21,679 nt of DNA, from the IMG/VR virus record IMGVR_UViG_3300044630_002995, positions 1 through 21,679 of that record; one strand, given 5' to 3'. Positions within the stretch are counted from its first letter, which is position 1; every line of letters begins with the position of its first letter. This document shows, in pieces, positions 1 through 21,679 of this stretch. A model generated the notes under the pieces. That model was not told the origin of the DNA. It was given only the letters and a program-made list of their open reading frames with translations, and made no database searches. The stretch is from a virus. Made by a program: the position numbers and the translations under genes.

Positions 1-544
1 AACCGCTTGATCCAGAAGTACCGCTTGATCCAGAAGTACCGCTTGATCCAGAAGTACCGCTTGATCCAGAAGATCCACTTGTGCCAGAAGAACCGCTTGA
101 TCCAGAAGTGCCGCTTGATCCAGAAGTGCCGCTTGATCCAGAAGTACCGCTTGATCCAGAAGATCCACTTGTGCCAGAAGAACCGCTTGATCCAGAAGTG
201 CCGCTTGATCCAGAAGTACCGCTTGATCCAGAAGTGCCGCTTGATCCAGAAGTGCCGCTTGATCCAGAAGTGCCGCTTGATCCAGAAGAACCGCTTGATC
301 CAGAAGTGCCGCTTGATCCAGAAGTGCCGCTTGATCCAGAAGTGCCGCTTGATCCAGAAGATCCACTTGTGCCAGAAGAACCGCTTGATCCAGAAGTGCC
401 GCTTGATCCAGAAGTACCGCTTGATCCAGAAGTGCCGCTTGATCCAGAAGTACCGCTTGATCCAGAAGTACCGCTTGATCCAGAAGATCCACTTGTGCCA
501 GACGAGCCACTCGTTCCAGAAGAACCACTTGTTCCAGATGGACC
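1..544 (-). repeat. 18-bp tandem array encoding a (Gly-Thr-Ser-Gly-Ser-Ser)n collagen-like tract
   Basis: About 30 units of 18 bp, all in phase with the reading frame, run from Gly-Pro-Ser at 544 to the window edge. Read on the coding strand a typical unit is GGTACTTCTGGATCAAGC. Units differ mainly at a few third-codon positions (GGT or GGC for Gly), and an exact 107-bp block at 147-253 recurs at 345-451. An occasional variant unit (gatccacttgtgccag on the plus strand) starts at 72, 162, 360 and 486, always at multiples of 18. Every third residue is Gly, with Ser or Thr in the X position and Ser in the Y position, and only one Pro, at the start. The near identity of the units points to recent expansion by slippage or recombination. 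Confidence 0.95.
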
Positions 545-3286
545 CTCTACGCCTTCAACTTTAGTAATTAAAATTCTACTAGCAGGATAATTGTTTCTTA
601 CATTTATATTTTGTGGCGTCAACTCGTTATGAAAAACATATACTTCAAAATAATCATTATTTGCTAATGTTAGTGTTGAACTAAAATGTGTTACAGGATA
701 ATCATCATTGGCTGAAATACTATTATAAGAGTATCTTGGTTGAGAAGGAGAGGCGTTATTCTTAACTATAAATACTGATCTAGTAGTACCAGCGGTTGCA
801 CCATTTGCCCAGCTTATGTAACCATCAATATTTACAATACAAGATTCTCCAGAACTATTTGTAAATCTATTTGATGAAGTAAAAGTTAAACCAGTATTTC
901 CTTGACTATTTGCAGTATCAACAGTATTCCAATCTACTATAGTATCTGTACTCGGAGGTATTGTTTGAGCGGTATTATTATATTTAGCTAAAGAACTTGC
1001 TTGTGTTGCTGTTCCACTAGTTCCTGATGATCCACTTGTACCTGATGATCCGCTTGTTCCACTTGATCCGCTTGTTCCCGATGAACCAGAAGTTCCGCTT
1101 ACAGGAGAAATTTCAATACCACGAAAAGTTAACACATTAGCAGTTGTATCTGTTAACGCGAATAAAAGCGGCTTAGAAATTGTTCCATAGGCTGAAGGCT
1201 CAACTGGTTGCCATGTTCCAGAAGTAGTCGTATTTAAAAAGTAAACAGTTCCAGCAATCAAATCCGACAAACCAGTTATCAATCCATCTATTACCACTTT
1301 AAAAGTATTTCCATTTACTGATTTAACGACACCCAACACTTCTGCATTTGCGGCGCTGTCTGCTTGCGCCAAATAAAAATCTGAACCATCATATCTTATG
1401 ACATTTCCAACAGCAAAAGTATGACCAATTTTTGTAAACTCTTCAATTAAAGAAGTGCCGCTCCCTGTATCTAATTGTTTTTTTACAATGTTATCTTCAA
1501 CTACTAATTTATATAAATTTTCTGAAGTTGTTGTTATTGGCAATTCAGTAAATACTAAATCATTACTACTATTATAATACAACGTACCTGTTGTTAATGT
1601 ATCCGAATCAGAGAATTTTGGTATATATCCACTAACACCAGATCCATCAATTACTTTTTTACCACTTAACGGACTAAGATTTATTGTATTATTTACGTAT
1701 CCCGAAGATATATAAAAAAGATCGGAAAATTCTGAGACTACTTCATCACTATTTATTGCGCGAACTTTAACAAAATAATCGTTTTGTTCGTTTACGGGAA
1801 AAATAAAACTTGGATCAATAGGCGAATAAGTAAAATCAGCAAAACCAGTTATTCTTTTTGCCATGCAAATACCAGTATTGTAGTCACCCAAATAAGTTAA
1901 TCCTGTATTATTTAAAGATGTATTAGTTAAGTATCTAGAATCAGAATATGTTCCTGTGTAGATATTGTCTTGATAGTATCCTCCAGATGGTAAAAAATTA
2001 AATTTATTATCGCCAGTGTAATTATAACATAAAAATACTTCATTATTATTAGAGCTACCAGATGGAATTCTTATTTCTGATATGTATTTTAATCCACCTG
2101 TGTATTGTGGAAAAAAACCACTAGGAAAAGAACCAAAATCATCTACATAAATAGTATGATCTTCCCATTTTATTCCTGAATATCCATAATTAGAAAATAT
2201 CGAACCAGTAAAAAGTATACCAGTTCCTGTTCCCGGCACAGTACTTAATATATTTTCTACTGTTCTATTGTTTAAAAAGTAATCGTATTTAGTTTTGTTT
2301 TTTCCACTTTCTTCGACTAATACATGAAAATTACAATCTTCTGATGCCGAAACGGAATCCCATTTTATAAATGCATTTAAATTTAAATCTTTAGATGTGT
2401 TATTGAAATCATAATAAACATATCCAGTAACCCCATTAATTTTATATGGCAATGCAGATTGATTATAAGAAGGTGGCTTTATTCCAGATGATGTTATTAA
2501 TTGACCTGTACTAAAATAATTCGATGGCAAAAAATGAACATAATAAGGAGTTTTAACATAATTATTGACAAGCGAATCAGATCCTCTATCGTTTATCGCT
2601 TTCTCCGGTACAAATATATTGTCAAAAGAAGGATAAAAATATTTATTTGTATATAAATAATCACCATTTGCGCCTGTAAAATCATAATCTTTAGTTACAA
2701 AAAGATCAAGTTCTTTTATTGACTTAGGATCTGATAAGTTTAAATTTATAGATATGTCAGTATCAAAATAAATAGAAGATATAGATAGACTTGAATTAGT
2801 AAAATTTACTAAAGAAACTCCTGTATTATAAAAACCACTATTATAAAATCCGCTATTACTAACGCAAACCACATCTATAAAAAATTGATTTAATCCCGAT
2901 AAATTATTTTCTCCAGTTAATAAAGTAAAAACTTCTGAAATTTGTTCGCTAGTTTTTGAATATTGTGTTGTATATAAAACTTCAGGATCTTGATATAGAA
3001 AATTTCTATTTTTATCATAATAATTTATTAAAAATCCTGAAAAACCACCATCAACAATAAAACCTGATAATAAATTTTTTGTTATCGGCCTTTCTACCTG
3101 CCAAGATAAATCTATAGAATCTTGCCTTATAGAACCACTTATAAAATCAATAGACCCATCCAACCCAAAGCTTTGCGCTGATATTGATTTGTCGGAACTA
3201 GACAAAGCGTTATCGAAGTTAAAATATAAATTTTTAACTACAAAAGGATCGTTATAATTTACCTCAAGATTTTGTAAAAACGCCAT
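1..3286 (-). CDS. Collagen-like tail fibre protein, incomplete at its C-terminus
   Basis: An open frame starts with ATG at 3286 and reads MAFLQNLEVNYNDPF without a stop for 1,095 codons to the window edge, so the C-terminus is missing. Residues 1-470 are a beta-rich, Asn/Ser/Tyr-rich region I do not recognise. About 474-535 looks like a fibronectin type III fold (YFVKVRAINSDEVVSEFSD). About 612-725 is a compact beta domain (HTFAVGNVIRYDG, later GVVKSVNGNTFKVVIDG) of a kind common in phage fibres. Residues 731-757 are nine Gly-X-Y triplets. Residues 758-914 resemble a C1q/TNF-like jelly roll. From 915 a long Gly-X-Y tract begins. The start lies 8 bases after the J-like stop, with no Shine-Dalgarno sequence but a TAATTAA leader. 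It follows the J-like gene, where lambda-type phages encode side or distal fibres, so receptor binding is the likely role. The reading frame and fibre character are clear; the domain names are inference. Confidence 0.87.
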   Translation of the reverse strand, partial: MAFLQNLEVNYNDPFVVKNLYFNFDNALSSSDKSISAQSFGLDGSIDFISGSIRQDSIDLSWQVERPITKNLLSGFIVDGGFSGFLINYYDKNRNFLYQDPEVLYTTQYSKTSEQISEVFTLLTGENNLSGLNQFFIDVVCVSNSGFYNSGFYNTGVSLVNFTNSSLSISSIYFDTDISINLNLSDPKSIKELDLFVTKDYDFTGANGDYLYTNKYFYPSFDNIFVPEKAINDRGSDSLVNNYVKTPYYVHFLPSNYFSTGQLITSSGIKPPSYNQSALPYKINGVTGYVYYDFNNTSKDLNLNAFIKWDSVSASEDCNFHVLVEESGKNKTKYDYFLNNRTVENILSTVPGTGTGILFTGSIFSNYGYSGIKWEDHTIYVDDFGSFPSGFFPQYTGGLKYISEIRIPSGSSNNNEVFLCYNYTGDNKFNFLPSGGYYQDNIYTGTYSDSRYLTNTSLNNTGLTYLGDYNTGICMAKRITGFADFTYSPIDPSFIFPVNEQNDYFVKVRAINSDEVVSEFSDLFYISSGYVNNTINLSPLSGKKVIDGSGVSGYIPKFSDSDTLTTGTLYYNSSNDLVFTELPITTTSENLYKLVVEDNIVKKQLDTGSGTSLIEEFTKIGHTFAVGNVIRYDGSDFYLAQADSAANAEVLGVVKSVNGNTFKVVIDGLITGLSDLIAGTVYFLNTTTSGTWQPVEPSAYGTISKPLLFALTDTTANVLTFRGIEISPVSGTSGSSGTSGSSGTSGSSGTSGSSGTSGTATQASSLAKYNNTAQTIPPSTDTIVDWNTVDTANSQGNTGLTFTSSNRFTNSSGESCIVNIDGYISWANGATAGTTRSVFIVKNNASPSQPRYSYNSISANDDYPVTHFSSTLTLANNDYFEVYVFHNELTPQNINVRNNYPASRILITKVEGVEGPSGTSGSSGTSGSSGTSGSSGSSGTSGSSGTSGSSGTSGSSGTSGSSGTSGSSGSSGTSGSSGSSGTSGSSGTSGSSGTSGSSGSSGSSGTSGSSGTSGSSGTSGSSGTSGSSGTSGSSGSSGTSGSSGSSGTSGSSGTSGSSGTSGSSGSSGTSGSSGSSGTSGSSGTSGSSGTSGSSG
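1016..1096 (-). repeat. Short collagen-like tract, nine Gly-X-Y triplets
   Basis: Nine triplets alternate strictly Gly-Thr-Ser and Gly-Ser-Ser (residues 731-757 of the fibre). Unlike the array at 1-544, codon choice varies freely: GGA and GGT for Gly, ACT and ACA for Thr, TCT, TCA, TCG, AGC and AGT for Ser. The amino acid pattern is therefore kept while the DNA repeat has decayed, which indicates an older tract under selection on the protein. Confidence 0.93.
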
Positions 3287-7442: not shown

Positions 7443-7456
7443 ATAATTAATTACAC
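7439..7456 (-). promoter_or_regulatory. A/T-rich translation leader of the I-like gene (shared with the fibre gene)
   Basis: On the coding strand GTGTAATTAATTATATGG spans the upstream stop (TAA) and the ATG at 7442. The fibre gene at 3283-3300 has GTGTAATTAAATATATGG, 17 of 18 identical, although the upstream stop falls in a different frame of the shared sequence. There is no Shine-Dalgarno sequence. A role in initiation is inference. Confidence 0.4.
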
Positions 7457-7779
7457 TTTCTTTCTATCATTTCATCACTATCTATATTATACATAAGCAT
7501 GTTTATATTATAATATTTTTGATACAGAATGTCTAAATCAGAAAAAAAAGGATTAGATAAATGACTATGGAAAAAGTATTTTATTTTATACTTATTTTTA
7601 ATTTCTAGATAATCTTTTGGGGAAATTAAAAAATAATTTTTTTTATCTAAATGTTTATTTTCTATTGGCATGAAAATCAAATCATCGCCTGACTCTACTA
7701 TAAATCCACATGTTTCCTCAAATGGATTTTCTTTACAATAATTTTTAATTTCTAACAATAAATTATTTTGAATTATCAT
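7447..7779 (-). CDS. JAMM/MPN-domain metalloprotease-like tail protein (N-terminal half of lambda gpK)
   Basis: The ATG at 7779 gives a 110-residue protein, MIIQNNLLLEIKNYC. I prefer it to the ATG at 7821 because the first 14 residues from 7821 lie outside the JAMM fold and would lengthen the overlap with the L-like gene from 17 to 59 bases. The JAMM residues are visible: Glu22 in the EETCGF segment, then HSHLSNPFFSDLD with His71, His73, Ser80 and Asp83. The spacer between HSH and Ser is six residues, one shorter than the usual seven. The middle part (PIENKH, then YFLISPKDYLEI) is typical of bacterial and phage JAB proteins. Lambda gpK carries a C-terminal NlpC/P60 peptidoglycan hydrolase after this domain; here the gene ends right after the JAMM core (RKCN then stop), so that domain is missing. 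The gene lies between the L-like and I-like genes, the lambda position. Confidence 0.86.
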   Translation of the reverse strand: MIIQNNLLLEIKNYCKENPFEETCGFIVESGDDLIFMPIENKHLDKKNYFLISPKDYLEIKNKYKIKYFFHSHLSNPFFSDLDILYQKYYNINMLMYNIDSDEMIERKCN

Positions 7780-8887
7780 AAGGAAATGTTGACGGAAAAG
7801 CACCAAATGGCAATTTCCCACCAGGAGTATCTGGATCTTCTAAATAATCTTTGAATCTTAATAAACACCCTCTAAGAGTTTTAGAACATTTATCCTGCTT
7901 CCAAATATCAGTATTAAGATCTGGTTGTTTATTTAAAATCTCAGAAGAAATGCAAACATAAAAATTCTTTGGTTTGTTATTTGTATTTAATACAAAATCA
8001 TCATTCAAATCAGTTGGCACACTAGGTATAAAATCTAAATAAACAAAATCCCCTTGAGAATAAGTTATTGATTTATCCCATCTTCCTTTATACGTTAATT
8101 TTTCTAAACCATAATTTTCATTTTGTAAATTATAATTAGAAGTTTTTAGATAATTTTTTAAAAATGTTTTATTATTTTCGTCTGCTACAGGAACCCCGAC
8201 ATCTGCAACATTTCCCCAAACATTAGTAAACCACCACGAACTATTAAGCATTCCATATCTCTTAATATATTTATTGGCGTTATCTATTAAAGGTTGGCTT
8301 AATAGATCTGCACCGTCTCTAAAATTAGGGCCTCTATAATCAGGAGTATTTCCATAGTTACACCCACAACAACGATATCCCCACGAACAAGTATCATTAG
8401 TTACTTTTCTTGCAGGTATATTCAAATTCTGAATATCTATTTTAGTTGCTAATTCTAACTCAACAAATTCTTTATTTTCAGATTTTTTCAGATTTATTAA
8501 AAATTTATCATAAGCAATATAAGTTTTAAATGATGAAATTCCAAATGGATTTATACCATCACTAAAATTTACAATATCTAAATCTTTAGCAAGAATTTTT
8601 TTTCTTATAAACCTCTTGCCAATCAAATCTTTACGATCTTTTAAAACATGCGATATATAATTATTTATATTAGCTATTTTTAATGTTGGCTTAGATTGTT
8701 TTCCATCTGACGAACTCTGTAGATTAGATAATTCAGAAGGTATAAAAATATATTCTTGGCCTTGAAAAACCATACCTTTAGAAAAATTTTTAGAACCATG
8801 AAAACGCAAATAACCTTCTGTCGATTCTAGCTCTAATTCATATAAATCAAAAACCACATAATTGTCTAGTTTAAAAAATGTTTTCAT
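7763..8887 (-). CDS. Lambda gpL-like minor tail protein with a carbohydrate-binding-like insertion
   Basis: A 374-residue protein. The N-terminal half (to about 160) fits gpL domain 1 (VVFDLYELELES, EYIFIPSELS, then ELATKIDIQNLNIPARKV). A cysteine cluster follows, NDTCSWGYRCCGCNYG, with Cys167, 173, 174 and 176. The C-terminus has KCSKTLRGCLLRF (Cys334, Cys341) and KLPFGAFPS, the conserved end of the family. Lambda gpL binds an iron-sulphur cluster through four cysteines, two before and two after a short loop. Here about 157 residues separate the pairs. Within them KGRWDKSITYSQGDFVYL, then FYVCISSE, QPDLNTDIWKQ (about 262-333) read like a CBM5/12-type carbohydrate-binding module. The start is one base after the stop of the 994-residue gene; the stop overlaps the JAMM gene by 17 bases. 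Family assignment is strong; the inserted module is inference. Confidence 0.9.
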   Translation of the reverse strand: MKTFFKLDNYVVFDLYELELESTEGYLRFHGSKNFSKGMVFQGQEYIFIPSELSNLQSSSDGKQSKPTLKIANINNYISHVLKDRKDLIGKRFIRKKILAKDLDIVNFSDGINPFGISSFKTYIAYDKFLINLKKSENKEFVELELATKIDIQNLNIPARKVTNDTCSWGYRCCGCNYGNTPDYRGPNFRDGADLLSQPLIDNANKYIKRYGMLNSSWWFTNVWGNVADVGVPVADENNKTFLKNYLKTSNYNLQNENYGLEKLTYKGRWDKSITYSQGDFVYLDFIPSVPTDLNDDFVLNTNNKPKNFYVCISSEILNKQPDLNTDIWKQDKCSKTLRGCLLRFKDYLEDPDTPGGKLPFGAFPSTFPYDNSK

Positions 8888-8888
8888 A

Positions 8889-11873
8889 TTATGATTTTCC
8901 TGCTAAATTAAAAATATTCGGTAATCTAAAACTATATAAATCAGATTTCAAATTAATACTGGTACAATCGGTTTCTCCACTAAATAAACTCATATAGTAA
9001 TCAGCATAATACGCATATGCAGAATTTAATTCAGATTCCGATAACAATCTTTTGTAAAAAGACACATCAAAATAATTTATACCTATACTGGCATTTCTAT
9101 TAATTAATTTTAAAGTAGTACTATTTAAATTTTTTAATAAAGGGCCGGGCGAATTTGTTTGATTAACTAACTCCCTATTAATAAAATAACTATAAGTATT
9201 GCCTGTTCTTCGTATTTGTAATATAAACGGCCTGTATAAAGCGTTGGATTTAATTTTTTCTACATAAACATTGCTGCCACCTGATATAGTTGACGTTCCT
9301 AATTTAAAAGTATAATCTGTAATATTTGATACAGCGTAAGTGTTTTTATCTTGTACGTGTGGAGAACTTGAATCGTAACTAGCTATACCAGATGGCAGCG
9401 TATCCGCATAAAAACAAACAATATCTCCATTTTGTAAATTATGTTTAGTAGATGTTGTTATGACACTAGAACTAATACTCGATACTTTAGATCTAATATA
9501 CAATTGTTTAGAAATCTTTCTTCCATAAAGTTTAGACGAAGAAGCGTTTATTGAATCGATTAGACATGTATTATTATAATTAAATGAAACATTTTCTTTC
9601 GGAAAAGGGATGTATAACAAACTTTCAAAATTTTTAATATTAAACTGACTGCTAGTTATATTTTTTTCATTTAAATACCAATCAAAAACAGAACAATAAA
9701 CATCGACATCAGTAGATGTGAAATCATCAAAACTACAGACGAAAAATAAATCAAAATCATCGAAAGAAATATTTGCATTTGCAGCAAAAGTCAATTTTAG
9801 AAATTGATTATTTTTTAAATTTATAGCTTTATATGTTGAAGAACTTAAATTTTTATAGTTTGATATATAGGCCCCCTCGTTAGCACTTGTTAGATTTTCA
9901 AGAGTATAAGATCCAGAACCAGACCAACTTGTTGCATTTGATATTCCACTTTGATTGAATCTAAATACATAATCAGAAGCAAGATTTTTATTATATAAAC
10001 TATAATTAACACTGGCGTTTGAAAAAGAATCTATAAGATAACCGGGTTGTCTATTATTTAAATTTTTATTAAATGGATACCAAAAGAATGCGTCTTTTAC
10101 TAAATTTTTATACGATAGCTTTTGATTAGGGTCATTCGTAGCAAGATAAGGAAAATAATAACTATTTTTTTCTCCTCTCACTGTATACGACAAATACGCA
10201 GAACCTACTTCACCATTATCTAGGATTGGGCTAACAACATCATAAGTTGCCTCCAAAATTCTCGCAACGTTTCCATTTGGATCAAGAACTCCCGAATAAC
10301 TTTGAGCATTATAATAAACATAATAAAGCCAATATTTTCTATTAACTTCTGTATCTTCTAAGTACCCTTTTGGATATGTACCATTAAATGGAATAACTCC
10401 ATATTGAGTTGGACTACTTATATTTGAAGTGTCAAAAAATAAAAAAAACGTTTGCCATACACTAACATAAGCAAAACCCCCTTTTCCACCTCCAGCACCA
10501 GCGCCAAACTTTGGTTCACAAACTGTTCCATTTCCTAAATTTGAAACTTGATTAATATTTGGTAATTGACTGTATATATTATATTTTATATCTGTTCTCT
10601 GTCCTATATTTACTAAATTTGTTTTTGCTTTTAATGTTATACATGGACCACCATTTGTTGTATCACTATATTTTTTTAATGGATCAGTTGGGGTTGTTCC
10701 ATTATTAGTTTCAGAAAGATACAAAACTTCTGCTGCGAGTTTAGGAATAAAATTAGCTCCATAAGTTGTACCTGTTCTTTCCATTCCTCTCTCATAATAA
10801 ACATTAGTTCCATCTCCATATTTACCCTTTAATTCCGTATTATATGGAACATATATATTTATAAATGTACCGCCATCTCCAGTTAAGTTATTAAATACAC
10901 CATCTAAACTCAACGCTCCAACATTTCCATCTCTTGATTCAAAAACGCTTTTTTCTGGCAAATAAATGTTTATTCCTGAATAAGCTGAAAAATCAATGCC
11001 ACCATTTTGTTTTATTATTTCAGCGTATAAATCATAAGTATAACTATACCAAGTGCTAAAATTATTATAAAAATTAAAAGCTTTTTTAACTAATTTAATA
11101 TTTATAGGCGCTCCAGAATATCCTATTGATACTTCATTTGAATAAGCATCAGCATTTGAATCAACTCCAGTTGCATATACAGAAACGCCAGTATTGTTAT
11201 TAACTAAACTATATAATCTAGCATAATAATTTTGATCGGCTGTCAAATTTGAATTTATACTTCTATTTAAAGTAAAAACTCTATCATCATCATTAAATCC
11301 ATAATAAGTTGAAAATTTTGGATTTAAATCTGTATTTTCAGCTATATTAAAATCTTTAGAATATTCTATCTGCAAACTAGTAAAATCTACACCAGTAGCC
11401 AAATCTAATCTATAACCAGTAATAAAATAATTTTTTAAATTAGATCCAGAAATCCCTGTCGGATCTTTCCAATAAAAATCATATTTCATGTTTTGTCTAT
11501 CGCCAATAACTCTAAAAGCTCTTGGATTTCCACCAGTTATATCAATTAATTTAGATCCAGTTAAATTTAATGTAATATCTCCACTTGGATCTACTGACCC
11601 ATCCTCGATTGAAATGGATGAAATAGTCAAATCAGTAACTTCATCAGCTAAAGAATTTGATAATGTAGGCTTATAAAAAATATCAAAAATATCATAATCA
11701 CCCGCATTTACAGCAAAACTGTTTTTAGATAAACTAAAATTATTACTATTAGAATTTTCAATACTATAAAGAACCGCTGCATTACCGCTATTAGAAATCG
11801 CTATAGGATAATGTATTCCAAAACCAGTCAAACAGTTTCCTATATTAGCGCCAGTTGTTTTTATATAACTCAT
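8889..11873 (-). CDS. Large multidomain tail adhesin-like protein inserted between the M- and L-like genes
   Basis: A 994-residue protein with no counterpart at this position in lambda. Residues about 8-110 resemble an ASPM-SPD-2-Hydin (Ig-like) domain (AISNSGNAAVLYSI, NSFAVNAGDY, then ITLNLTGSKLI). About 115-250 looks like a fibronectin type III domain. From 290 to 480 is a beta-rich region ending in a glycine run (KFGAGAGGGKGGFAYVSVW), like the Gly-rich tips of some receptor-binding proteins. About 590-960 appears to be a LamG-like lectin fold, starting FFWYPFNKN and closing FDVSFYKRLLSESELNSAY. Within it, about 795-870 (ITTSTKHNLQNGDIVCFY, later NTYAVSNITDYTFKLG) resembles the small FCCH beta domain often found in phage tail proteins. 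The ATG overlaps the M-like stop as ATGA, suggesting translational coupling. Surface attachment is the likely role. It is certainly a real gene; the domain calls are by eye. Confidence 0.78.
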   Translation of the reverse strand: MSYIKTTGANIGNCLTGFGIHYPIAISNSGNAAVLYSIENSNSNNFSLSKNSFAVNAGDYDIFDIFYKPTLSNSLADEVTDLTISSISIEDGSVDPSGDITLNLTGSKLIDITGGNPRAFRVIGDRQNMKYDFYWKDPTGISGSNLKNYFITGYRLDLATGVDFTSLQIEYSKDFNIAENTDLNPKFSTYYGFNDDDRVFTLNRSINSNLTADQNYYARLYSLVNNNTGVSVYATGVDSNADAYSNEVSIGYSGAPINIKLVKKAFNFYNNFSTWYSYTYDLYAEIIKQNGGIDFSAYSGINIYLPEKSVFESRDGNVGALSLDGVFNNLTGDGGTFINIYVPYNTELKGKYGDGTNVYYERGMERTGTTYGANFIPKLAAEVLYLSETNNGTTPTDPLKKYSDTTNGGPCITLKAKTNLVNIGQRTDIKYNIYSQLPNINQVSNLGNGTVCEPKFGAGAGGGKGGFAYVSVWQTFFLFFDTSNISSPTQYGVIPFNGTYPKGYLEDTEVNRKYWLYYVYYNAQSYSGVLDPNGNVARILEATYDVVSPILDNGEVGSAYLSYTVRGEKNSYYFPYLATNDPNQKLSYKNLVKDAFFWYPFNKNLNNRQPGYLIDSFSNASVNYSLYNKNLASDYVFRFNQSGISNATSWSGSGSYTLENLTSANEGAYISNYKNLSSSTYKAINLKNNQFLKLTFAANANISFDDFDLFFVCSFDDFTSTDVDVYCSVFDWYLNEKNITSSQFNIKNFESLLYIPFPKENVSFNYNNTCLIDSINASSSKLYGRKISKQLYIRSKVSSISSSVITTSTKHNLQNGDIVCFYADTLPSGIASYDSSSPHVQDKNTYAVSNITDYTFKLGTSTISGGSNVYVEKIKSNALYRPFILQIRRTGNTYSYFINRELVNQTNSPGPLLKNLNSTTLKLINRNASIGINYFDVSFYKRLLSESELNSAYAYYADYYMSLFSGETDCTSINLKSDLYSFRLPNIFNLAGKS

Positions 11874-13870
11874 AGTTTTACTATTGTATTGAAATAAATA
11901 TCTGAAGCTAAATGCCCTTTAAATTCTAAAAATTTTACATTAACATCATGATTATCTTTAAATTTATAAGTATGATTCCATTCTGGGCAGTAAAAAGTCA
12001 ACCGCTTATTGTAAGGTTCTGGTAAAGTAAATTCAAATAATTTAAAACCACATTTATCATCTAAAAACTTTAAAATTGCAAAAGCTTCTTTATCAGATCT
12101 ATTTGTAAAAGATAAAGATAAATCAAGTATATTTTTATTTATTCCGTCCTGCTCATATGCAACCGAAGTCATTTCGTATTCATTTTTTAAAAATCTTGGA
12201 TTTAATGGAATTTTAAAATCAAGATCTGGTTTAAAATAAAACTTTTCAGTAAATAAACTGTTGTTTCCAGTTGGGCTTTGTGTGCTATTTAAAAATGTAG
12301 ATGCGTCTCCTGTGTACCAATAATAACCTCCAGATATCGATGTATCATTATAATAAACTACATCATGCTTTGAATACGTCTTATTTAGCATAAAAGGTCT
12401 TATTGCTGATTCATCAGTAATAAGATAACCTTTATAATCTAAATTAGAATCATATGCTGTTGTGCAATTTATAACAACGTTATTAATATTAGTGTCTACA
12501 GAATTATAATCTAAATTTTCAAAATAAATTTTAGCATTATCTTTATATGGATAAAAAAGATCCATTGAAACATTTTCATAAGAATCTATTTTATTTAGAG
12601 GTTCGTATTCAAAAGAGTTTTGAAAAAACCCTATCAAAGAAAAAGCCTGTTTATCAGTTAAACCGTCATATTTTAACGAAAAATTACTTACTAAATTATT
12701 TGCATTAGGTATGACATTAGAAAAATATCCATCACCAAAATTTGATTTAATAGCTTTAGTGTTAAAATTAGATGAACACCCATATGTTTTATTAAACAAG
12801 CCATCAATATTTTTAGTTAAATATTGCGAACCAGTTAAATTAATCGGCGCATAGTTATAACTATTTGAAGTGAAATCTTGAGTTGCAATATATAAATTAT
12901 CGTCATTTGTAAAATATTTTTTAAATAAATATTTTTCTAATTTCAAAACCTCTTCGTCTGTCGGCGTTTTTGAATAACCAATTATTTCATAATAAGATAT
13001 ATTACTGGCATCATAATTATAACTAACACCTTGATTCGTACCAATTATCTTACTATTAACAGCGTTTCCAACTCTTAAACTAGCACAACCAGTACCAAAA
13101 AAAGTAGCAGTATTTGTATTTAAAGTTTCAAATCCATTATTTCTTACTCTTAAATTTGTTGTTGTATTATTTTTTAAAATAGAAACTATATTTTTATTGA
13201 ACAAATTGGCCGCTGAAAAATTAGTATTTATATTTGCTGAGTAAGTTGGATTAGAATCAATAACAAAACGCTGAGATCCAGGTTCCAAATTAAAATTTGG
13301 AATTTCTAAACCGTTCGTATTATTGCCGTAAACTCCAAAAAAACCTGTAGATATGGTTGATGTGTTTGCGTTATCTGTGTTTATAATTGTTGAATAATTT
13401 GCAAAATATCCATCCGTAGTGGTTAGCTTTCCCTCTCTCAAAGAATCAAATTCATAAACAACAAACCAACACCTATCTCCAGTCAAAAAACCACTAAAAT
13501 TAGGAGAGCTTGTATCAGTATATAATTCATTATACAAACCCAGATCAGCATTTGCTTCGCATTTTATACTATTTTTATCAAGATCGTATGCGGGTTTAGT
13601 TTGCGAGGCATGGTAGTTATATAAATTTTCTGTTGAATGTCCTGGAGCAGAATTATACCAAATAGAAATTTTACCTGAAGGGTCTATATCAAAATTATTT
13701 AAATCATCACTTTTAAACCAAGCAAACAAACCTGATATATCTGATGGATATGCGGTATCACCTGTATAATATTGATAATCTACTAGATCATATTTAGAAT
13801 ATAATTGAGAATCAATTCTAAAATCTTTAATCCCACTAATTGAAAATTGCGTATCTAAAAATTTACTCAT
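11870..13870 (-). CDS. gpM-like minor tail protein expanded by a LamG-like domain
   Basis: A 666-residue protein; lambda gpM has about 110. The C-terminal part holds two related minor tail domains. The first (about 365-470) has KSNFGDGYFSNVIP and LKYDGLTDKQAFSLIGFF. The second (about 555-655) has TSVAYEQDGINKN, LSFTNRSDKEAFAILKFL and LTFYCPEWNHTYKF, matching the gpM pattern of a long helix and then a Cys-x-x-Trp strand. N-terminal residues about 47-320 look like a LamG-like concanavalin fold: LFAWFKSDDLNNF, ISIWYNSAPGH, CWFVVYEF, and the closing YYEIIGYSKTPTDEEVLKLE. A short YSKxDxV...YYTGD motif occurs twice, at about 24-38 and 499-522, and may be a carbohydrate-binding or linker module. It lies upstream of the L-like gene, as M precedes L in lambda, where both sit at the tail tip below the tape measure. 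It has the only good Shine-Dalgarno-like sequence in the window. Confidence 0.77.
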   Translation of the reverse strand: MSKFLDTQFSISGIKDFRIDSQLYSKYDLVDYQYYTGDTAYPSDISGLFAWFKSDDLNNFDIDPSGKISIWYNSAPGHSTENLYNYHASQTKPAYDLDKNSIKCEANADLGLYNELYTDTSSPNFSGFLTGDRCWFVVYEFDSLREGKLTTTDGYFANYSTIINTDNANTSTISTGFFGVYGNNTNGLEIPNFNLEPGSQRFVIDSNPTYSANINTNFSAANLFNKNIVSILKNNTTTNLRVRNNGFETLNTNTATFFGTGCASLRVGNAVNSKIIGTNQGVSYNYDASNISYYEIIGYSKTPTDEEVLKLEKYLFKKYFTNDDNLYIATQDFTSNSYNYAPINLTGSQYLTKNIDGLFNKTYGCSSNFNTKAIKSNFGDGYFSNVIPNANNLVSNFSLKYDGLTDKQAFSLIGFFQNSFEYEPLNKIDSYENVSMDLFYPYKDNAKIYFENLDYNSVDTNINNVVINCTTAYDSNLDYKGYLITDESAIRPFMLNKTYSKHDVVYYNDTSISGGYYWYTGDASTFLNSTQSPTGNNSLFTEKFYFKPDLDFKIPLNPRFLKNEYEMTSVAYEQDGINKNILDLSLSFTNRSDKEAFAILKFLDDKCGFKLFEFTLPEPYNKRLTFYCPEWNHTYKFKDNHDVNVKFLEFKGHLASDIYFNTIVKL

Positions 13871-17420: not shown

Positions 17421-20400
17421 TCAAGTTCTTACTCCAGCTAATGAACCGCCAAATTGTTTTTCTTTTCTAATTACTTCGCCAACAGCAGCATATATCTTAT
17501 TATTTAAATTCTTAGATAATTCGATATCTTGTTGTTCGTAGCTTGTTGTATTGCTTCCCATTTTTAAAGATCCATCTCTTTGAACGCTTGTATTAAAGTT
17601 AAATGAATTATTTGCGCTCGTATTATTATTAACTGTGGAGTTGCTATTTCCAGCGCTACTAATTGGTGAACCACCGCTTTGCATACCAGTTCCGTATCTT
17701 TTCACCATTGGAGAATCGTATAGTCCGCCTTCCATATAACCGGGAATTGTATCAGAAAGACGAGAACCAATTAATCCACCAGTTTGTTTTCTTCTAAATG
17801 GCTTGGATAAAGCTGATCCAGTTTTTTGATACCAAGTTTGACCTTTAGTAGGGCCAGAAAAAACAGACGCGAAACCTGTTTGAGGTGTTGCTCCAATATA
17901 TCTAGATGGCGCGTTTGGCAGACTTGGAGTTACAATTCCTTTTCCTACAAGAGATTGTTGTTTGAAATATTCAGCCTCAGTTCTAGGACCACCCTGAGCA
18001 TTCATTTTTTCTGTAAAACTCATATTATTTTTAGCATCTATATTTTTTGTTACATTAGAAATCCCTGCGCCAATAGCGACTGTAGCAACAGCAGCCACTA
18101 AACTACCAATCATTGCTGCTTTTTGTTTTTTTGCTTCTAATTTTTTAGCTCTATCTTCTGCGGCTTTTTGTTTTGCAGCATCATTTAATTCATTATAATA
18201 TGGACTATTTTCTAATCCCATTTCTGTCATATTAGCTTCCATACTAGAAATATCATTAAATTCTTTTTTGAATGTTCCACCACTAGCAAAACGAGGTGCA
18301 GCAGAGAAATTTAATGTATCAAGAGCGGCAGGACCACCCATTGCCATTACCGCTCTTCTATTTAATACATATTCACCATTCTCAAGCATCGCTGGATATT
18401 TATCGCCAGTTCCAGTGCCTGATATATACATGCCTGATTGAGCGCGAATATATCCACCTTTTTGATTTCCAGTCATTCCTCCTATTAAATCACCAAAACC
18501 TACTCCACTTAAAATATTACGAACTCCAGCTTTCATCAATGTAGTACTTATTTCATCTAAGAATTTAGAAGCTATGCCCATTAAAGCGGTCCCCAAGTTA
18601 TCTGATTCTCTAATTGCGGCTTTAATACCATCTACTAAACCATCAGCGAACATTCCCGGTAAATTTCTACCTAACTGATCAACCATATCGTCGGCTTCTT
18701 TTCCAAGATTCTTAAAACCGATAGCCATATTATTCACAAAACCAGCAGATTTCTCAAAATCTGCTTTTGCTTGTGCAACTTTTGCAGCATAAACAGTAGC
18801 ACTAGAACCTAATGTTTCGCTTGCAGTTTTAAGATCTTGTATGGTATTATCAATAGCGTTTACAGTAGATTGGTCTTTTCCTACTTTTGACTCGTTTAAT
18901 TTAACCATCGCTTGTTCTATAGACATTTCATTAGTAACGCCAAGATCTGATAATTTATTATAAGATAATGTGTTTTTTCTTTCGTTAAAAGATTTTTTTA
19001 ATACGCTCACCCTAGATAGCGCATCACCTTTTTCTGTAATTTTTTCTAAACTACTGTTGTATTCAGGCGTTCCAAAAGTTTTGCCACTTAAATCTTTTAT
19101 AGAAGAGTCTAGTTGTCCACGATATATTGCGGACACTAATTCTAAAATAGCATCAGTATTAGCGTTTTGCGCGTTTATATTTGCTTCTTGAGTAGCAATT
19201 TCTATGATTGATTTTCTAGCATCTAGAATTGCTTGTTTTTGAGCTATTTTTTGCTCATCATCGAAAATTGATTTTTGATCTGTTTGCTGAGAAGCGAAAG
19301 TTTCTCTTTTTCCTGATCCTAAATATCTAAACTCACTTCCAATGTCTATTTTTTTTAATTCTAAAGCTTGTCCCGAAGTTATTTTATAACTTTCTGTATC
19401 TTTCCTTAACTGAAGGGTTGCGTCTTTTTGGGCATAAGTTATTTTTAATTTTTCTTTTTCGAGTTCTAATTGTTTTAAACCTGTTTCATAATTAATTTTA
19501 TTTGCCGTTTCAGTTAAATCAAACTCTTTAGTTTTTAATTTTAAATTGTTCTCTAAATCAGTATTTAAATCAGAAAGAGATTTTTGATCCGCTTCTAAAT
19601 CTTTCGATAAACTTAAGGCGCTTTGAGCAGAAACTCCTAAATTTTTAGCAAAAGATTCAAAGTCTGATCTAGATTTATTTAATGGACCTGATATAAATTC
19701 ATATATCAGGTTCATTGTTGTTGGGTTTCTTGTCACGCCTCCTTCCGCTCCAAAAATTGTTTTTGCCACTTTATCTTCATAAGAAGATGTGTTTTGAGCT
19801 TTTTTTAATCTTGTCGTTTCTGTTATCTGTTCTCTTCCTTTTGACACTTCTGACGCTTGGAATAAATTTGTATAATTTAATTGTGATGATTTTGCACTTA
19901 TTCCCGCCATCTCAGATAAATTTCCAGAAATAGAAGAGTAAATAGAATCATTAATTTCTTTCATTTTTCCAGAAATTAAATTTGTAATAGAAGTGTCAAA
20001 TTCATACTGCCTAATAGAATCTGAAACTTTAATTAACGAGTCAGACAATGTTAAAGTTAATTGTCTTTTTAATGAAAGAAAATCATTAATCAAAATATCT
20101 GCTGCTTTTTTATCAACATCTTCTTTTTTTGTTTTTGTCTTTGCATACTTCATTAAATTACCTAAACGATTAATTAAGTATCCACCAATTACATTGCTGT
20201 CTTCTTCCAACTCATCAAAACGAGCGGCTAGACGTTCAGACATTCCTTCTGAAACGCCATTTTTTGTTAAAAAAGACGACACCACTTCAGGATCAAAATA
20301 ATCTGCTTTTCTTTGCGCTTGTATTAATTTTGCAAACTCTTCAACTTTGTCTTCGGTTAACGCGCCTAAATCTTCAAAAGTCTGTTTATAATCAGCTAAA

Positions 20401-21679
20401 ACTCTATCGTCGTTTTGTTTAGAGTTTTCTAAGTAAACGAAATCAGGTAGTAATAATGAATCGCTTTTGTTAGTCTTACTTTTATTATAACCTAATTCAG
20501 ATAACTGTTTAGCGTTTTTAGCTTTGCTACCCAAAGCAGCTTTTGTATCTTCATCAGCTTCATTTTGAGTTTTTTTACGATCTTTTTCGTATTGATTTAA
20601 TGCGTCTCCTAGTTTTTTAACATCAGTACCTGTATTTTTAAAAATTTCTTGTAAATTGACGTCTTTAATATTAGAAAAATTTTCAGCTAAAGACTCACTT
20701 GCTTTTTTAATTATTTCTGGATCTGTAGCTGTATTTAAAGTTTTTAACGTTTCTATATAAGTTTGAGCGGTAGATACATTGTCTTGAGTTTTTGATTTAT
20801 ATTCACTCGCTACTTGACTCAATTCATCTGCACTTAATGAAGCCGCGCCTAAAGATTGAGCTAAACCTACAGCCGCTCCAGCAAGGACACCTATACCTAG
20901 TCCCAAAGGACCAAAAGCCGCTCCAATAGATGCTCCAGTTGACGCCGCTGTTAATCCAGTGCTTAGTCCTGATTGAACTTGACGTTCTCTAGCAGACATG
21001 TCGGCTCTTTTTCTGTCACCAAAAACAACTTGTTCAGTTAATCCAGCAGCCGTTGGACCAACAAACGCTAAAGTTTTTCCAAAGTTAGATATTTGTGTTT
21101 GAAATTCTGGAGAATCTATTTTACCAGATAAACTCGCAAATGAAGACTTAGTTGAATTAGTTAGTGTTTTACCTGCATTTGATAGTGTATTACCCGCATT
21201 TGATATACTTGATATTATTTTTTTAGCCGTTGATTCGGCGGTTCTTTCTATTTTTTGTGGATCAAAATTGCTATTCATCACACTAAGACCCAATAAAATA
21301 TTTTCTTTAACCGTTCCAATCTTGAAACTTAATTGTTTACCAAAATTATCAACAGATGCAGCAATTGAATTGGAAAATTTAACGAGATCAAAACCTTTAT
21401 TATTTTGTGGCGCTGCAAAATTTGGAACATATCCTTTATTCATCAATCCAGCATTCTTCTGCCCTCTCATTGAATCACTCAAAGCATTACTTAAACCACC
21501 ATGATCAGATATTGCGGAACTGAATGTTGGCTGACTCTTGTTTCTAATGTGTGGGAAAGGCTTAGTATCGAATACGGCTTTTTCTCCGCTCATGCTTTCT
21601 TCTAAGCCCATTACTGCTTGTTTATACGCAAAGTTGGGAATAAAACCTTTTGCAGCATTCATTGCCAAGAACTCAGGAT
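17421..21679 (-). CDS. Tail tape measure protein, incomplete at its N-terminus
   Basis: The frame is open to the right edge (Pro-Glu-Phe-Leu precede the first in-window Met), so the TTG at 21668 is probably not the true start and residues are missing. I number from that TTG. GFIPNFA (8-14) and GYVPNFA (79-85) bound a 71-residue repeat. Residues about 235-277 are a Gly/Ala-rich hydrophobic helix pair. Long charged helices follow, with coiled-coil character around 690-760. Near 1085-1105 GTGTGDKYPAMLENGEYVLN is the conserved C-terminal segment of tape measure proteins, and a weaker copy (GSRLSDTIPGYMEGG) comes later. A second hydrophobic helix lies at about 1183-1203. The end (an Asn-rich stretch, then EVIRKEKQFGGSLAGVRT) is typical. 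In this family the protein fills the tail tube and sets its length; at about 0.15 nm per residue the visible part alone implies a tail longer than about 210 nm. A role for the hydrophobic helices in DNA entry is inferred. Confidence 0.94.
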   Translation of the reverse strand, partial: PEFLAMNAAKGFIPNFAYKQAVMGLEESMSGEKAVFDTKPFPHIRNKSQPTFSSAISDHGGLSNALSDSMRGQKNAGLMNKGYVPNFAAPQNNKGFDLVKFSNSIAASVDNFGKQLSFKIGTVKENILLGLSVMNSNFDPQKIERTAESTAKKIISSISNAGNTLSNAGKTLTNSTKSSFASLSGKIDSPEFQTQISNFGKTLAFVGPTAAGLTEQVVFGDRKRADMSARERQVQSGLSTGLTAASTGASIGAAFGPLGLGIGVLAGAAVGLAQSLGAASLSADELSQVASEYKSKTQDNVSTAQTYIETLKTLNTATDPEIIKKASESLAENFSNIKDVNLQEIFKNTGTDVKKLGDALNQYEKDRKKTQNEADEDTKAALGSKAKNAKQLSELGYNKSKTNKSDSLLLPDFVYLENSKQNDDRVLADYKQTFEDLGALTEDKVEEFAKLIQAQRKADYFDPEVVSSFLTKNGVSEGMSERLAARFDELEEDSNVIGGYLINRLGNLMKYAKTKTKKEDVDKKAADILINDFLSLKRQLTLTLSDSLIKVSDSIRQYEFDTSITNLISGKMKEINDSIYSSISGNLSEMAGISAKSSQLNYTNLFQASEVSKGREQITETTRLKKAQNTSSYEDKVAKTIFGAEGGVTRNPTTMNLIYEFISGPLNKSRSDFESFAKNLGVSAQSALSLSKDLEADQKSLSDLNTDLENNLKLKTKEFDLTETANKINYETGLKQLELEKEKLKITYAQKDATLQLRKDTESYKITSGQALELKKIDIGSEFRYLGSGKRETFASQQTDQKSIFDDEQKIAQKQAILDARKSIIEIATQEANINAQNANTDAILELVSAIYRGQLDSSIKDLSGKTFGTPEYNSSLEKITEKGDALSRVSVLKKSFNERKNTLSYNKLSDLGVTNEMSIEQAMVKLNESKVGKDQSTVNAIDNTIQDLKTASETLGSSATVYAAKVAQAKADFEKSAGFVNNMAIGFKNLGKEADDMVDQLGRNLPGMFADGLVDGIKAAIRESDNLGTALMGIASKFLDEISTTLMKAGVRNILSGVGFGDLIGGMTGNQKGGYIRAQSGMYISGTGTGDKYPAMLENGEYVLNRRAVMAMGGPAALDTLNFSAAPRFASGGTFKKEFNDISSMEANMTEMGLENSPYYNELNDAAKQKAAEDRAKKLEAKKQKAAMIGSLVAAVATVAIGAGISNVTKNIDAKNNMSFTEKMNAQGGPRTEAEYFKQQSLVGKGIVTPSLPNAPSRYIGATPQTGFASVFSGPTKGQTWYQKTGSALSKPFRRKQTGGLIGSRLSDTIPGYMEGGLYDSPMVKRYGTGMQSGGSPISSAGNSNSTVNNNTSANNSFNFNTSVQRDGSLKMGSNTTSYEQQDIELSKNLNNKIYAAVGEVIRKEKQFGGSLAGVRT
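19681..19716. repeat. 15-bp inverted repeat inside the tape measure gene
   Basis: aatggacctgatata (19681-19695) and tatatcaggttcatt (19702-19716) are inverted copies with one mismatch in 15, separated by a 6-base loop (aattca). In the transcript this would form a hairpin with one A-C mismatch. It encodes MNLIYEFISGP in the tape measure, so it is not an intergenic terminator, and there is no U-run after it. Function unknown; chance is possible in AT-rich DNA. Confidence 0.5.
21414..21647 (-). repeat. GF(I/V)PNFA repeat module in the tape measure
   Basis: AAKGFIPNFA (residues 5-14) and MNKGYVPNFA (76-85) lie 71 residues apart and bracket one full module containing SGEKAVFDTKPFPHIRN and FSSAISDHGGLSNALS. 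The right edge of the window cuts into this region, so more copies may lie upstream. I have the impression that such PNFA motifs recur in the N-terminal part of large phage structural proteins; their function is unknown to me. Confidence 0.6.

Follow-up and report, generated by a model that had tools for sequence, protein, structure and literature searches.

The DNA analysed here (the window) is a virus record of 21,679 bases from a metagenome, presumably of a freshwater phage. At 7763..8887 on its minus strand lies a gene for a gpL-like tail-tip hub of 374 amino acids. The ORF matched the PF05100 (Phage_tail_L) profile with an E value of 4.6e-34 (118 bits, with a cut-off of 25) and PHROG 18 (phrog_18, minor tail protein) with an E value of 7.2e-44, and phmmer matched the encoded protein to tail tip protein L of phage lambda (gpL, 8iyk_L; E 2.3e-14). 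Residues 4–150 (8438..8878, minus strand) correspond to the N-terminal tail-tube-like hub domain (HDI), which was superposed by VIA-align on residues 9–156 of lambda gpL (Z 15.2, rmsd 3.2, 142 residues) and was the only part of the full-length model to align with that protein. These matches bear out the gpL-like identity proposed in the initial annotation, and the 374-residue protein is a gpL-family (PF05100) baseplate hub protein.

The genes around it on the minus strand are, in order, M-like, a 994-residue ORF, L, a JAB-domain K-like gene, I-like and J-like, which is the gpL-type order M-L-K-I-J with an extra ORF between M and L. This extra ORF (8889–11873, minus strand) is absent from the lambda gene order; its one match, weak and Ig-like, lies near the start and falls short of the cut-off (E 0.0077). 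The M-like protein (11870–13870, minus strand; 666 residues) has its PF05939 domain at 543–649 only, and so carries a very long N-terminal extension; its residues from about 485 slightly resemble the module in L described below, a likeness for which hhalign gave no support. The K-like ORF (7447–7821, minus strand; 124 residues as listed) overlaps the end of the L gene and holds a JAB domain only, with a readable JAMM-like HSH...SDLD motif. It is too short to fit an NlpC/P60 part, such as lambda gpK has. Further away, a tape-measure-like ORF (17421–21668, minus strand) has short G(F/Y)(I/V)PNFA repeats near its N-terminus. After J, an open-ended ORF (2–3286, minus strand) contains long (SSG/TSG)n Gly-Ser-Thr repeats, with an 18-base tandem unit present in 29.8 copies at 2–538; it resembles a tail fibre or appendage built of repeats, and the PLDPEVP ORFs on the plus strand are antisense to it.

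Cysteines of the C-terminal domain

The gpL-like protein has cysteines at 167, 173, 174, 176, 312, 334 and 341. All but C312 had been listed in the initial annotation, together with a 157-residue gap, and their positions agree with the translation. Conservation was counted over 29 non-redundant relatives and over 53 distinct spans from the first to the fourth ligand cysteine (C1-to-C4), the latter once near-identical contigs had been removed. By phmmer, TCSWGYRCCGCNY of the window pairs with TCTWTYRGDECGY of lambda gpL, and DKCSKTLRGC pairs with DKCSKCLSGC (shared motif DKCSK-x-L-x-GC); the second stretch, which covers C334 and C341, is not significant alone (i-Evalue 170), and multiple alignments give the same pairing. 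On the basis of this pairing with 8iyk_L, C167 and C176 correspond to lambda Cys173 and Cys182, and C334 and C341 to lambda Cys205 and Cys212. In the description of the lambda tip, these four cysteines surround the cluster density, and the iron-sulphur domain lies on the outer surface of the tip (PMC10721106).

The predicted ligands are therefore C167 (8387..8389), C176 (8360..8362), C334 (7886..7888) and C341 (7865..7867), all on the minus strand. They reproduce the C-x8-C and C-x6-C spacing of lambda gpL, and each is a cysteine in 29/29 relatives. As judged from alignment, these four residues most probably coordinate a [4Fe-4S] cluster in the C-terminal domain. The three close cysteines of the CCGC stretch had raised the question of which ones are ligands, and alignment with the L family together with the conservation counts resolves them into one predicted ligand, one clade-specific residue and one stray. 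C176 is the predicted ligand; C173 (8369..8371, minus strand) is conserved in the clade (28/29 relatives, 48/53 distinct spans), with glycine at its position in lambda and in three remoter relatives (L089, L092 and L095); and C174 (8366..8368, minus strand) is sporadic, being found in 2/29 relatives (the window and L010) and 3/53 distinct spans. The additional C312 (7952..7954, minus strand) is invariant in the 29 relatives and is also kept in L089, L092 and L095, all of which are without C173; these comparisons turned up no partner for it.

A long loop in two pieces between the cysteine pairs

In the window, 157 residues separate C176 from C334. In lambda gpL, which has the same N-terminal hub domain and cysteine spacing, the corresponding gap is 22 residues (Cys182 to Cys205, PMC10721106); the longer gap of the window also holds a predicted beta module. 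We surveyed this Cys2-Cys3 loop in contigs of the window's clade, which were found by searches with the window protein and an alignment of its relatives (n = 83, near-identical contigs included). The loop was 120–203 residues long in 83/83 contigs; 82 were parsed in the survey and the remaining one (L020, 136 residues) was read separately. Of the clade members read, L020 carries a stop within the N-terminal part of its L. Classical L loci were gathered with classical queries, one of whose alignments also contained two inserted forms. The first query gave a loop of 22 residues in 80/80 loci (the best 80 of 172), and the second gave 22 residues in 72/80, with one loop of 20 and seven loci unparsed (the best 80 of at least 569). 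Five further classical L (L032–L035 and L177) added three loops of 22 and one of 21, with L177 unparsed. Pooled, all 157 parsed loops, from 165 examined, were 20–22 residues long (155 at 22, and a single loop each at 21 and 20), counts that are no census of the family because the two main queries were classical and covered their 80 best loci each. As 83/83 clade contigs have loops of 120–203 residues and the classical L have 20–22, the long loop is a fixed feature of the clade.

Long loops also occurred in a remoter group comprising a Flavobacteriaceae MAG and viral contigs (L089–L096), where they ranged from 129 to 266 residues in 8/8 loci (L096 and L089 are the same genome). L089 was the sole relative found among the genome contigs searched, and PF05100 was present in 2/395 genomes of the class of genome G001. 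Among phage isolates, sequences covering 80% of the query were absent from 994 records in the isolate collection searched, from 557 with a second query (P0001) and from 47 with the module and C-terminus as the query.

A domain between the cysteine pairs, with the cluster intact, is already known from two other hubs. In that of phage vB_DshS-R4C (R4C, 8gtc), the ion-binding domain comprises residues 142–161 and 244–266, and the oligosaccharide-binding domain residues 162–243 (PMC10276861); in RcGTA Rcc01696 (6tba), the ion-binding residues are 143–167 and 250–263, and the oligosaccharide-binding residues 168–249 (PMC7296036). A four-cysteine cluster is reported in the maps of both (PMC7296036, PMC10276861). 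We read the R4C hub gene (vBDshSR4C_014) as C147-x9-C157, 86 residues, then C244-x6-C251, so that R4C (C157 to C244) and the window (C176 to C334) both carry a domain between Cys2 and Cys3. The initial annotation had argued that this loop must be a tolerated decoration point; the 86 residues at the same site in R4C, with the cluster seen by cryo-EM (PMC10276861), fit that view. As in the window, the RcGTA and R4C domains sit in a split iron-binding domain, and theirs are read as oligosaccharide-binding in the published accounts. The comparisons drawn there for the RcGTA domain are with the insertion domain of LKA1 gp49 and with the T4 hub protein, not with CBM5/12 (PMC7296036).

The inserted loop of the window is not one uniform insertion. 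Residues 183–229 (8201..8341, minus strand; insertion A) are hypervariable in sequence and length, with a mean pairwise identity of 0.33 and 17.1 gap columns per pair, compared with an identity of 0.71 in the N-domain. They are followed by GVPVADENNK within residues 230–243 (8159..8200, minus strand), a segment that motif and alignment identify as retained from the classical 22-residue loop. The motif G-x-P-x-A-D-x-N-[DN]-K occurs in 53/53 distinct inserted loops and aligns with GPPVADE-x-D of the classical loops (for example, GYSGPPVADEKDRPTTDPSKDK), 39/74 distinct examples of which have a similar motif. Next come a variable linker (residues 244–258; 8114..8158, minus strand; mean pairwise identity also 0.33) and insertion B, a CBM5/12-like beta module at residues 259–333 (7889..8113, minus strand). 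Because all inserted loops keep the classical-like motif, the classical loop appears to have been opened at two places and not replaced: from the alignments, insertion A (183–229) is the predicted opening before the retained GVPxADENDK segment, and the linker with the module (244–333) the one after it. The initial annotation had described a single inserted module at residues 262–333, which do correspond to 7889–8104. An insertion exists there, as stated; it is wider than that interval and consists of two pieces round a retained segment.

Fold and variation of the module

The full-length model (29 sequences) had a mean pLDDT of 66.9, with block means of 91 and 94 over residues 261–280 and of 94 and 87 over residues 311–330; pLDDT was below 50 over residues 150–183 and 287–305. 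The latter stretch falls in an expanded variable loop within the module (residues 286–305; 7973..8032, minus strand; mean pairwise identity 0.28). A model of the module only (residues 259–340) had a mean pLDDT of 73.9. Searched with Foldseek, it gave 29 matches at E values up to 10, of which 16 were chitinase or chitin-deacetylase chains and three were chains of the A-1(L) fibre or of the Anabaena injection-system baseplate; none of the 29 reached 0.001, and the best was 0.21. As the Foldseek E values are above 0.2, the call of a CBM5/12 fold rests on the agreement of the hits on one small module type.

Pairwise superpositions by VIA-align gave the closest match to a segment of the cyanophage A-1(L) fibre (8kec_a, residues 134–184; Z 9.1, rmsd 1.1 over 50 residues). 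For CBM5/12 modules (ChiC 1wvv/2d49, ChiA1 1ed7, ChiB 1e15 and Vibrio cholerae chitin deacetylase 4nyu), Z was 4.6–7.0 and rmsd 1.3–4.0 over 42–50 residues: ChiC (1wvv_B) and the deacetylase (4nyu, residues 386–434) each scored 7.0 and the isolated chitin-binding domains 2d49 and 1ed7 scored 5.7 and 4.6, values that should be read with the caution that a Z below 8 may reflect a common arrangement. The same small fold was found in the Anabaena baseplate protein All3316 (7b5h_AE, Z 5.2) and in Agrobacterium phage Milano (8fqc_Q1, Z 5.0); in these proteins and in the A-1(L) fibre it belongs, as far as seen, to other particle proteins and not to the iron-sulphur loop of a hub. On the models, residues from about 259 to 333 are a separate beta module of predicted CBM5/12 fold, as the initial annotation had expected.

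The sequence evidence for CBM5/12 membership is weak. The Pfam CBM_5_12 profile matched 5 of the 29 members scanned at E values up to 10 (best E 0.02); its cut-off was not reached by any of them, and the window's own module was absent from the matches. An hmmsearch of PDB sequences with a profile of the module gave no significant match (best E 0.16). With hhalign against ten CBM5/12 segments the probability was 59% over 16 confident columns, which is suggestive only, and it was 2.6% when a global alignment was forced.

In a relaxed alignment, W270, Y276, G279, P322 and W329 pair with the CBM5/12 framework, so the W, Y, G, P pattern is common to both. The window module is unlike CBM5/12 in its expanded loop (286–305), in the invariant C312 and at the tandem Trp site. 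CBM5/12 modules bind chitin through an exposed pair of tandem tryptophans, and the segments that we aligned show WW there; in the window the site is occupied by I313-S314. All 29 relatives have Ile, Val or Leu at 313, no aromatic residue is present at 314 in the 26 of 29 letters listed, and 0/52 parsed distinct spans (the 53rd, L029, being unparsed) have an aromatic in either of the two places after the module cysteine. As the tandem site is non-aromatic, the canonical chitin platform is missing from this module. Of the CBM5/12-like module first proposed, the predicted fold stands, family membership has weak sequence support, and the canonical binding site is absent.

Variation is unevenly spread along the protein. 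The low identities of insertion A, the linker and the module loop contrast with 0.57–0.62 in the module framework and with 0.81 and 0.74 in the cluster segments, a pattern that fits an exposed scaffold bearing variable loops, as far as the alignments go. The identities of the N-domain and of the module parts were correlated (Spearman 0.50–0.60), which is compatible with evolution with or without swapping.

The combination of gpL with a CBM5/12-type module may already have been deposited without comment, as hinted by the name of BFVD entry A0A6J5N8N2 ('ChiA1_BD domain containing protein', uncultured Caudovirales phage, 252 residues), which matched the full model with a Foldseek E value of 4.6e-4 over 173 columns. 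In the literature searched, mostly outside subscription papers, we recognised no description of a CBM5/12-like module at a gpL-type Cys2-Cys3 site. What is new is the CBM5/12-like type of the module, its fixation in an environmental phage clade and the two-piece anatomy of the loop.

Possible roles of the module

Our overall reading, to which we assign about an even chance, is that the protein is a gpL hub with a [4Fe-4S] domain, that its loop has been expanded by two insertions, and that the module is an auxiliary adhesion domain. The short Cys2-Cys3 loop, positioned as in lambda on the outer face of the tip, would have been expanded round a retained core. The cluster would close beneath the module, as in R4C and RcGTA, which is feasible since the chain runs into and out of the module at a single loop. 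Three copies of the module per tip, the number implied by a threefold hub, would project sideways and might give low-affinity adhesion to the envelope or capsule of the host, with contact probably made through the variable loops and not through the canonical chitin-binding Trp pair.

The strongest competing account, clearly less probable though one we take seriously, is that the module is a bead of CBM5/12 fold that binds no ligand and serves as a structural spacer, filling space or touching neighbouring gpJ, gpI or fibre proteins. In its favour, the tandem site is non-aromatic, the nearest solved match to the fold is the phage fibre segment 8kec_a 134–184, the fold also recurs in an injection-system baseplate and in phage fibres or baseplates (7b5h_AE, 8fqc_Q1, 9rkv_O), and the framework residues are conserved above the loops. 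A caution for the adhesion reading is that, in phage A-1(L), a carbohydrate-binding module on the neck fibre is reported to have shown no binding to host cells (PMC10966104). Against a spacer, loop identities of 0.28–0.33 represent more variation than would be expected of a fixed protein–protein interface, and the domain published from this site in other hubs has been read as saccharide-binding (PMC10276861, PMC7296036). Because the conservation pattern fits an exposed scaffold with variable loops, we modestly prefer auxiliary adhesion over a pure spacer.

The extra cysteines suggest a further account, in which the module is fastened to the cluster domain by C312 and C173, through either a disulphide between them or a second metal site. 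Their conservation (C312 in 29/29 and C173 in 28/29 relatives) speaks for such a link, but L089, L092 and L095 keep the equivalent of C312 with glycine at the position of C173, so the two do not co-vary, and the region 150–183 is modelled at low confidence; we regard the link as improbable. Less likely still, the module, C312 and the extra cysteines might make up a working unit in which the variable loops sense the host and the iron-sulphur domain relays binding and helps to trigger opening of the tip. What the iron-sulphur cluster does in hubs of the gpL family has, by the published account, yet to be characterised (PMC10721106). If the relay were real, the Cys2-Cys3 loop of the gpL family would serve generally as a socket in which adhesion domains can be exchanged, and it would be coupled to the cluster.

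That residues 262–333 are simply part of the ordinary gpL fold is very unlikely: the retained GVPxADENDK segment is indeed ordinary gpL, though it lies outside that interval, and the survey of loop lengths leads us to reject this reading (20–22 residues in the classical loops, 157 parsed of 165 examined, vs 120–203 in the clade). An assembly or annotation artefact fusing two genes, conceivable in a metagenomic virus record, is the least credible of all and is rejected on the presence of the same architecture in 83 contigs of divergent sequence, since that divergence makes a mis-assembly common to all of them unlikely.

The clade, R4C and RcGTA together suggest repeated use of the loop between the cysteine pairs for tail-tip decoration near the cell surface. 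The natural series of loop lengths (22, 120–203 and 264–266 residues) bears on the idea of the cluster as a structural clamp that lets the loop carry a cargo domain. Extra stretches inside the module itself were seen in L089 (5977–7437), L092 (3001–4464) and L029 (2–1195), whose L proteins are 398 (partial) to 488 residues long, and these are a decoration within the decoration.
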